A stretch of 64,000 nucleotides of DNA, from the NCBI RefSeq assembly GCF_017068395.1, contig NZ_CP070619.1, positions 7,626,001-7,690,000 of the forward strand, read 5' to 3'. Below, in pieces: positions 8,363 through 10,521 of this stretch. This DNA is from Rhodococcus pseudokoreensis (GTDB taxonomy: Bacteria; Actinomycetota; Actinomycetes; Mycobacteriales; Mycobacteriaceae). A program made the translations under genes and the position numbers. Below the pieces are notes generated by a model. It was not told where the DNA came from, did not search any database, and was given only the letters and a program-made list of their open reading frames with translations. Position 1 is the stretch's first letter; every line of letters starts with the position of its first letter.

Positions 8363-10521
8363 GTGTGAACGTGACCAGTCGTCCGGCGACCGACCCGACG
8401 ACGACGCCGGAGGGCGGCCACGACCCGGCGCCCGTCAAGGCCGGGATCTTCAGCCCCGCCCAGCTGGTGACGGCGCTGCCGGGCGCGCTGCGCAAACTCG
8501 ACCCGCGGCACCTCGCCCGCAACCCGGTGATGTTCGTGGTGTTCGCCGGTTCCGTCGTCACCACCGTCATGGCCGTCGCCGACCCGTCGGTGTTCTCCTG
8601 GGCGGTCACCGCGTGGCTGTGGTTCACCGTGCTGTTCGCGAACCTCGCCGAATCGGTCGCGGAGGGGCGAGGCAAGGCGCAGGCGGCGAGCCTGCGGAAG
8701 GTGAAGCAGGACACGGTCGCCCACCGGATCACGGCGAGCGGCGCTCTCGAATCGGTGCCGGGCACCGACCTCGTCGTCGGCGACCGCGTGGTCGTCGTCG
8801 CCGGTGAGGTGATCCCGGGCGACGGCGACGTCGTCGAGGGCATCGCCACCGTGGACGAGTCGGCCATCACCGGCGAGTCCGCGCCCGTCGTCCGCGAATC
8901 CGGCGGCGACCGGTGCGCCGTCACCGGCGGCACCACCGTACTGTCCGACCGGATCGTCGTCCGCGTCACCGCGGCCCCCGGACAGTCGTTCGTGGACCGG
9001 ATGATCGCCCTCGTGGAGGGGGCGGCGCGGCAGAAGACGCCGAACGAGATCGCCCTGAACATCCTGCTGGCGTCGCTGACGATCATCTTCCTGCTCGCCG
9101 TCGTCGCGATCGGCCCGATGGGCCTGTACGCGGGGCAGGAACAGGATCCGATCAAACTGATCGCGCTGCTGGTGTGCCTGATCCCCACCACGATCGGCGC
9201 CCTGCTGTCGGCCATCGGCATCGCCGGGATGGACCGGCTGGTGCAGCGCAACGTCCTGGCGATGTCGGGGCGGGCGGTGGAGGCCGCCGGCGACATCGAC
9301 ACCCTGCTGATGGACAAGACCGGCACCATCACGTTCGGCAACCGGCAGGCCACCGCCCTGCATCCCGCACCGGGAGTGTCCGCGCTCGAGCTGGCCACGG
9401 CGGCACGGCTGTCCAGCCTCGCGGACGGCACCCCCGAGGGTCGCAGCATCGTGGACCTGTGCGCCCGCGACTTCGGGCTGGACCCCGCACCGTCGGAGGC
9501 GGAGAGAGCGGCGGAGTTCGTGCCGTTCACGGCGCAGACCCGGATGAGCGGGCTCGACATCCCCCACGTGAGTGCTAAAGCGTGCCTCGGCACACGACGC
9601 CACTCACATGGGGCCGAGTTCGACGGCACCCGCATCCGCAAGGGCGCGAGCGACGCGGTGCTGAACTGGGTGCATTCGCTCGGCGGACACACCTCGCCCG
9701 CGGTCACCGACGCAGTGAACGAGATCGCGCAGGCCGGCGGAACACCCCTCGTGGTGGCCTCGATTCAGGCGGATGCGCCGACGGTGCTCGGCGTGATCGC
9801 ACTGTCGGACGTGGTGAAACCGGGCATCGCCGAGCGGTTCGCGGAACTGCGGGCGATGGGAATCCGCACGGTGATGATCACCGGCGACAATCCGCTCACC
9901 GCCCAGGCCATCGCGGAGGAGGCCGGTGTCGACGACTTCATGGCGGAGGCGACACCCGAGGACAAACTCGCGCTGATCCGCAAGGAACAGGAGGGCGGAC
10001 GGCTCGTCGCGATGACCGGTGACGGCACCAACGACGCCCCGGCCCTGGCCCAGGCGGACGTCGGGGTGGCGATGAACACCGGCACGTCCGCGGCGAAGGA
10101 AGCCGGGAACATGGTGGATCTCGATTCCGATCCCACCAAGCTCATCGAGGTGGTGGAGATCGGAAAGCAGCTGCTCATCACCCGCGGGGCGCTGACCACG
10201 TTCTCGCTCGCCAACGACCTGGCCAAGTACTTCGCCATCCTCCCCGCGTTGTTCAGCGTCATCTATCCGCAGCTGGACACGCTGAACATCATGCGGCTGG
10301 CCACGCCGGAATCGGCCATCCTGTCGGCGGTGATCTTCAACGCCGTCGTGATCGTGGCCCTGATCCCGTTGTCGCTGAAAGGTGTTCGCTACCGGCCGTC
10401 GTCGGCGTCGACGCTGCTGGGCCGCAACCTGCTGGTCTACGGCCTCGGCGGCGTGATCACACCGTTCGCCGGTATCTGGCTCATCGACCTCGTCGTCCGT
10501 CTCATTCCCGGAATTGGGTGA
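8359..10521 (+). CDS. kdpB: KdpB, ATP-hydrolysing subunit, with a ~20-residue insertion
   Basis: The P-type ATPase catalytic subunit energising K+ uptake. The TGES actuator motif (ITGESAPV), the phosphorylation motif DKTGT, KGAS in the nucleotide domain, and GDGTNDAPAL are all present. The protein has about 720 residues, longer than the usual 680-690. Part of the excess is an insertion at residues 402-421 (bases 9562-9621), between MSGLDI and DGTRIRKGA; in E. coli KdpB these two stretches are contiguous (MSGINI then DNRMIRKGS). The insertion coincides with a palindromic repeat. The frame and all catalytic motifs stay intact, so the enzyme may still work. The GTG at 8359 overlaps the kdpA stop. 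Confidence 0.96.
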   Translation: MSVNVTSRPATDPTTTPEGGHDPAPVKAGIFSPAQLVTALPGALRKLDPRHLARNPVMFVVFAGSVVTTVMAVADPSVFSWAVTAWLWFTVLFANLAESVAEGRGKAQAASLRKVKQDTVAHRITASGALESVPGTDLVVGDRVVVVAGEVIPGDGDVVEGIATVDESAITGESAPVVRESGGDRCAVTGGTTVLSDRIVVRVTAAPGQSFVDRMIALVEGAARQKTPNEIALNILLASLTIIFLLAVVAIGPMGLYAGQEQDPIKLIALLVCLIPTTIGALLSAIGIAGMDRLVQRNVLAMSGRAVEAAGDIDTLLMDKTGTITFGNRQATALHPAPGVSALELATAARLSSLADGTPEGRSIVDLCARDFGLDPAPSEAERAAEFVPFTAQTRMSGLDIPHVSAKACLGTRRHSHGAEFDGTRIRKGASDAVLNWVHSLGGHTSPAVTDAVNEIAQAGGTPLVVASIQADAPTVLGVIALSDVVKPGIAERFAELRAMGIRTVMITGDNPLTAQAIAEEAGVDDFMAEATPEDKLALIRKEQEGGRLVAMTGDGTNDAPALAQADVGVAMNTGTSAAKEAGNMVDLDSDPTKLIEVVEIGKQLLITRGALTTFSLANDLAKYFAILPALFSVIYPQLDTLNIMRLATPESAILSAVIFNAVVIVALIPLSLKGVRYRPSSASTLLGRNLLVYGLGGVITPFAGIWLIDLVVRLIPGIG
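9562..9613. repeat. 52-bp palindromic element inserted in frame in kdpB
   Basis: The arms CCCCACGTGAGTG and CACTCACATGGGG pair with one mismatch. A core GTGCC-TC-GGCAC pairs at the centre, and all pairs share the same axis (positions sum to 19175). The element begins at the first base of the extra codons of kdpB. With 8 further bases it makes exactly 20 codons, so the frame is kept. The GTGAGTG end resembles the ends of the palindromes at 2091-2134 and 54989-55034. Confidence 0.7.

Follow-up and report, generated by a model that had tools for sequence, protein, structure and literature searches.

An in-frame palindromic insert in Rhodococcus kdpB and a family of dyads at gene 3′ ends

The kdpB insert and its empty site

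The window analysed here, a 64,000-nucleotide stretch of the Rhodococcus pseudokoreensis genome, sits on the 8.73-Mb contig C6 (whole genome, 9.87 Mb) and carries, at 8359..10521 on the forward strand, a kdpB gene encoding subunit B of a K+-transporting P-type ATPase (980 bits against TIGR01497, cut-off 528). Alignment with E. coli KdpB, for which solved structures exist, places a 20-residue gap exactly at residues 402-421, where a 60-bp in-frame insert (9562..9621, forward strand) supplies the 20 codons PHVSAKACLGTRRHSHGAEF. The insert consists of a 52-bp imperfect palindrome (9562..9613, unstranded) followed by the 8 bp CCGAGTTC (9614..9621, forward strand), and the palindrome in turn encloses a 40-bp core, GTGAGTG-N26-CACTCAC (9568..9607, unstranded). 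Since the bases TC close the left flank as well as the insert, placements at 9560-9619 and 9561-9620 are equivalent to 9562-9621. A sequence-only reading of this DNA had proposed both the 20 extra in-frame codons and a 52-bp imperfect palindrome at their start, and the observation is confirmed, the codons by the alignment gap and by the empty site in relatives. The same reading called KdpB longer than usual; the protein is indeed 720 aa long if translation starts at the GTG at 8359, compared with 682 aa in E. coli, but the insert accounts for only 20 of the extra residues. Folded as RNA, the palindrome scores z = -3.9. Its pattern, with up to three mismatches, matched the window twice, both times at the kdpB element itself, and did not match any of 100 shuffles, and an Rfam search over positions 9000-10200 gave no match.

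The uninterrupted kdpB site was present in all three relatives compared, G006, G009 and G026. In G006, the nearest relative, whose KdpB is 98% identical, GGGCTCGACATC is followed directly by GACGGC. When KdpB sequences were aligned across the genus, the insert was missing from all 22 other same-genus loci read (21 plus the second kdpB of G023), in which RMSG(L/V)D runs on to RKGA. Among 28 KdpB loci of other named records, taken from 80 fetched records, none filled at least 10 of the 20 insert columns, and 15 had 1-7 residues there. A protein database query built from KdpB residues 391-440 returned a single match, P0001, a Rhodococcus koreensis KdpB (cluster of eight member sequences) that has the insert and is 98% identical over 720 aa. 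Just after the insert, P0001 reads VLTWVQAHGG where the window reads VLNWVHSLGG, and G006 shares the window's version. Since insert and flank fit no single simple tree of P0001, G006 and the window, recombination between strains is likely.

The proposal that the protein seems to tolerate the insert is supported by the presence of the insert in R. koreensis P0001 and by a purifying codon pattern on the window branch. Between the window and G006 kdpB genes, 72 codons differ, 56 of them synonymously; the changes that could be assigned to a branch were 21 synonymous and 5 non-synonymous for the window and 29 and 6 for G006, a comparison weakened by the fact that part of the window branch may be older than the insert. 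In an AlphaFold2 model of KdpB (mean pLDDT 74, pTM 0.62, 30 aligned sequences), residues 405-420 of the insert have pLDDT below 50, as is partly expected because just 2 of the 30 aligned sequences contain the insert, and they are flanked by strands 396-400 and 425-429. The insert peptide is predicted to be disordered and to form a loop at a beta turn in the nucleotide-binding domain; KdpB therefore probably remains functional. Ribosomes translating kdpB should also prevent the hairpin from folding in the mRNA, in which case it would not be expected to terminate transcription within the gene.

A repeat family at gene 3′ ends

The kdpB palindrome is a member of a dispersed family, as the sequence-only reading had suspected. 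A genome-wide search with the core pattern, allowing up to two mismatches, returned 80 forward and 79 reverse matches, compared with 0 and 1 for a reversed control pattern. The family unit is the 40-bp dyad GTGAGTG-N26-CACTCAC, of which we distinguish two types. A covariance model built from 30 copies gave, among its best 150 matches, at least 76 distinct places of type A, the type to which the kdpB element belongs by pattern, fold and genome matches. Type B, defined by a pattern whose inner arms differ (GGTTGACGAGT...), had 78 matches with up to three mismatches (control, 6), and 50 of these were listed and analysed. The 76 type A and 50 type B copies listed all lie on C6, with none on C1-C5, which make up about 11% of the genome. 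Covariation among the 30 type A copies was modest, with 83.3% of cells paired as against 81.5% for shuffled data (4 of 500 shuffles reached the observed value), and further pair types numbered 34 compared with 24.3 (0 of 500 as high). Type B copies often carry a small perfect hairpin (at least 5 pairs, at most 27 bases off the core edge): 36 of the 50 listed have one to the left, 32 have one to the right, and 22 have both; the corresponding counts among the 76 type A copies listed were 4, 5 and 0, and 8.5% of random 27-mers contain such a hairpin. Among the 50 type B copies listed, 32 have TAG before them and 21 have CTA after them. We found no description of the repeat in Rhodococcus in the titles and abstract openings of the open-licence papers listed.

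The location of these copies is strongly biased. Using gene calls from a codon-usage caller built for this analysis, and counting a gene 3′ end as coinciding with the dyad if it lay no more than 15 nt outside or 10 nt inside the core edge, we found such an end at 56 of the 76 type A copies listed and on both sides of 20; for type B the counts were 44 and 16 of the 50 listed. Random places in the window met a 3′ end at one edge in 2.3% of cases and on both sides in 0.04%, and random intergenic places in 10.6% and 0.45%, respectively. The 3′ ends on both sides mean that a dyad is often common to two convergent genes, and the TGA within GTGAGTG is itself the stop of a called gene in 19 of the 76 type A copies listed. 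A second family member in the window, a type B dyad at 2093..2132 (unstranded) with a small GC hairpin at its left, lies in such a setting: it is flanked by an era-like GTPase gene, which ends at 2077, and by a TetR-like frame that converges on that gene and ends at 2121, both names being read from translations.

The 76 type A copies listed are predicted to fold stably as RNA, with a mean energy of -33.7 kcal/mol (range -48.5 to -15.4). T is not in excess in the 10 nt flanking these copies when each is taken as 54 bp (mean count 1.57, expected 1.55), and at least five T occurred in only 2 of 152 sides, so there is no classical U tract. Of the features that define an intrinsic terminator, type A copies therefore have the stable hairpin just past the stop codon and lack the U tract. 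Judged by position and fold, the likeliest role of the family is that of a bidirectional terminator without a U tract or of an mRNA 3′-end hairpin. An excerpt of PMC8355165 describes hairpins that resemble terminators, near stop codons and without a U trail, in M. tuberculosis and Streptomyces; in the genomes it covers, that paper found the sequence within 25 bases of stop codons not to be conserved. The Rhodococcus dyads resemble those actinobacterial intrinsic terminators in lying close to stop codons without a U trail, and differ from them in that heptamer, length and arms are conserved within the lineage.

Two other kinds of short repeat bear comparison. Haemophilus influenzae and Actinobacillus carry a fixed short uptake-signal word in inverted pairs at gene 3′ ends, according to a passage of PMC5217627. 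The dyads share with these paired uptake-signal terminators the single fixed short word in inverted pairs at gene 3′ ends; unlike them, they also repeat their inner arms and have no T tract. Simple uptake-signal behaviour was set aside, since the single word GTGAGTG was not enriched in the window (12 occurrences, 8.95 expected; 23 of 100 shuffles as high). The dyads are also like REP elements, which are mobilised by RAYT transposases, in being short, mostly extragenic palindromes with tens to hundreds of copies per genome. A RAYT origin was nevertheless unsupported: in contrast to REP/RAYT systems, the Rhodococcus genome encodes no Y1_Tnp protein, as a search for the Y1 family (PF01797), the one transposase family covered, gave no match here and was positive in 5 of 14 control genomes.

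That result also counts against a broader alternative, in which the family is a non-autonomous mobile element (MITE- or REP-like) whose GTGAGTG ends are recognised by a transposase and whose gene-end location reflects selection against gene damage. Consistent with such selection, called genes span only 8 of the 76 type A copies listed (and 0 of the 50 type B copies), whereas they span 84% of random sites. Damage selection alone, however, predicts intergenic sites, of which 10.6% would meet a 3′ end, and not the 74% seen. The copies also appear to have moved little. We compared 36 copies with G006, G009 and G026, 9 of them chosen and 27 taken randomly from the remainder after 6 tandem copies had been left out: judged by the gap length between flanks, 24 were filled in at least one relative, 8 of these also being read base by base; a single copy, that in kdpB, had a clear empty site (in all three relatives); and 11 received no filled or empty call, owing to truncated rows or to flanks that did not turn up. 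With 24 of 36 copies filled at the same place and 1 of 36 empty, little recent movement is visible. On this evidence we regard a mobile element as unlikely. One copy among the 11 without a call, at 1648016 on C6, has a single match in G026 with 14 extra bases, and its flank is itself repeated: the upstream flank, ACGGGACACCCGTTCGATCTGACGCAATGAGCGTCCCGTTCGCC, is a dispersed repeat with several matches in G006, G009 and G026 and also looks partly palindromic.

Donor locus, copying and copies within reading frames

The best other match to the kdpB insert in the genome was by far C6:5287640-5287701 (95% over 62 bp, 1e-21; next best, 5e-10). This donor locus (C6:5287647), 2.3 Mb from kdpB, lies at the 3′ end of a gene of TetR type in which a TetR_N domain was found, and the dyad there supplies the end of the gene, ...VLGELDPT-stop. 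The orthologous loci in G006 and G009 read GAACTCGGCCCCACGTGAGTGG and, in a second excerpt, GAACTCGGCCCCACGTGAGTGGCG, and the window genome's own donor allele now reads GAACTCGACCCC. Reverse-complemented, the tail of the kdpB insert, CCGAGTTC, is identical to GAACTCGG, the last coding bases of the donor TetR-type gene in G006 and G009. Comparison of these sequences shows that the kdpB copy derives from C6:5287647 and was inserted opposite to the orientation of the donor gene. Six bases of the donor gene travelled with the palindrome, or eight counting the shared TC, which could equally be the target's. Microhomology with the target is 2 bp at both junctions using the window genome's donor allele, and 1 bp at one junction using that of G006.

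Because it includes 6-8 bp of the donor gene, the kdpB insert looks like the product of ectopic copying rather than a unit with fixed ends. These imprecise ends, which carry donor coding sequence, speak further against a mobile element, and with that flank and only 2 bp shared at its junctions the kdpB copy lacks the defined ends and the target site duplication of a MITE. We favour, with a probability of roughly 0.7, the reading that a gene-end hairpin was copied ectopically into kdpB, and that the family of this hairpin most likely consists of bidirectional terminators without a U tract or of mRNA 3′-end stabilisers. About 60 bp of the donor 3′ end (the last 6-8 coding bases plus the palindrome) was copied in this strain's lineage, probably by template switching or by break repair that used 2 bp of microhomology and was helped by the hairpin, although microhomology this short is weak evidence for any mechanism. 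That the length is a multiple of three and that an open frame was used would then be luck. A copy made through RNA is also conceivable: reverse transcription would have copied the 3′ end of the donor mRNA, comprising the last coding bases and the terminator hairpin up to a final GGGGG, and the product would have been integrated. The copied stretch does extend from within the donor gene as far as the hairpin's outer base, as a terminated transcript would, yet template switching at the DNA level fits equally well, and we consider the RNA route highly improbable. In G009, alone among the three genomes compared, the dyad of the donor locus (L196) and about 20 bp of flank are tandemly duplicated; the donor locus may thus be prone to copying errors. 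In kdpB we can identify the donor locus of a new repeat copy, its empty site and the flank that it brought along, and under the ectopic-copy reading the gene shows how a non-coding signal can enter a conserved enzyme.

The sequence-only reading had likened the insert to the Rickettsia palindromic elements (RPEs), which a passage of PMC10969869 puts at about 150 bp, with nearly half of those first reported lying in genomic ORFs. The likeness holds in so far as both are families of palindromic repeats found in frame in metabolic genes, with a peptide that is apparently tolerated. It fails on size (the Rhodococcus core is 40 bp and the kdpB insert 60 bp), on location, since the Rhodococcus copies lie mostly at gene 3′ ends and not about half in ORFs, and on the donor flank carried by the kdpB copy. 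A related possibility is that the family is nonetheless a coding element whose main way of life is to seed peptides into proteins. Besides the in-frame kdpB insert, three more deep copies and four C-terminal tails would fit such an element, as would the consensus, which read from its sequence leaves two of three frames per strand open. Against it, no called gene spans any of the 50 type B copies listed, and 68 of the 76 listed for type A are likewise not spanned.

The eight type A copies spanned by genes divide evenly: four fall within the last nine residues of the protein, and four lie deep, in kdpB, in an AftD-type arabinofuranosyltransferase, in a condensation-domain-like protein (so called from the names given to its homologues) and in the adenylation domain of an NRPS module. 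The AftD, condensation-like and NRPS copies have the same place and length in every relative read (two or three each). The AftD loop varies in length within the genus (27 loci read), and the condensation-like copy sits in a hypervariable linker (38 of 376 homologues aligned). We therefore dropped these two as further clean insertions, since the loops vary in length in outgroups that lack the element, and the same variability weighs against a peptide-seeding element, which we judge very unlikely. At the NRPS copy, 14 residues separate the aligned blocks, compared with 58 in a solved relative, as measured from alignment ends; for the condensation-like protein our searches found no solved relative and no Pfam family. 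By these sequence comparisons, only the kdpB copy, among the four deep ones, is cleanly inserted at a site that is empty in relatives.

Among the 27 AftD loci, in-frame dyads of type A occupy the loop in eight (L215-L222) and type-B-like dyads in five (L227-L230 and L232), that of L227 reading GTGCGTGGAAAAGGAGTCCCTGGACTCCCTAACCACTCAC; other loci among L215-L241 have shorter or unrelated loops at the same site. The presence of two dyad types at one AftD loop may reflect either independent arrivals or the replacement of arms at a single site.

The dyad beyond Rhodococcus

Searching for GTGAGTG-N22-30-CACTCAC, we found 0-76 forward matches per genome in 28 genomes of the genus. Across the family, 45 of 201 genomes had a match, mostly few, with 24 and 27 in two genomes of genus g6, and in an order-wide sample searched with spacer 26 only, 9 of 121 genomes had one. 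Six genomes of genus g62, which belongs to another family, carried 30 to 191 dyads. Outside the genus, 70 forward matches were listed, 41 with a spacer of exactly 26 and 29 with one of another length. The inner arms differ by lineage, and do so as matched pairs: in 51 sequences (38 different 40-base sequences from the matches listed in other genera and 13 hand-picked Rhodococcus copies), an arm paired with its own partner at 9.3 of 11 positions, compared with 4.25 of 11 with a partner from another genus. The constancy of the heptamers is partly by construction, because they served as the search key; the spacer peak and the matching of arms are not.

A repeated 40-bp unit, outer heptamers conserved in distant genera, a patchy distribution and as many as 191 forward matches in one genome are what a mobile element might also leave behind, and they count in its favour. 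In genera g6 and g16, 19 of 21 hand-picked copies had a gene 3′ end at the edge, and 11 had one on both sides. Returning to the gene-end reading, it is possible, and we propose it tentatively, that GTGAGTG-N26-CACTCAC represents one old class of gene-end signal in the Mycobacteriales. Its fixed outer heptamers and 40-bp length would be read by a factor or by RNA polymerase, and its inner arms would be swapped by lineage as a matched pair. Such a signal would act as a sequence-specific, bidirectional terminator without a U tract, spreading by hairpin-driven copying between loci and, as with KdpB, occasionally lengthening a protein by a peptide.

The larger interest of the kdpB insert lies in the dyad class itself. 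To our knowledge, how transcripts end in GC-rich actinobacteria without U tracts is an open question, and a dyad class with recurring outer ends, a preferred length, lineage-specific matched arms and a place at gene ends in Rhodococcus offers a testable handle on it.

In g62 the 3′ bias is weak. Only 5 of 21 dyads had a gene 3′ end at the edge, 13 lay within 60 nt of one, 6 were nearer a 5′ end and none was within a gene. The six g62 genomes are G263, G275, G281, G293, G299 and G317, and many of the dyads listed from them are centred on GTTCTAAC or GTTAGAAC; in the 21 read, from G275 and G293, GTC or CTC often stands before the dyad and GACC after it.
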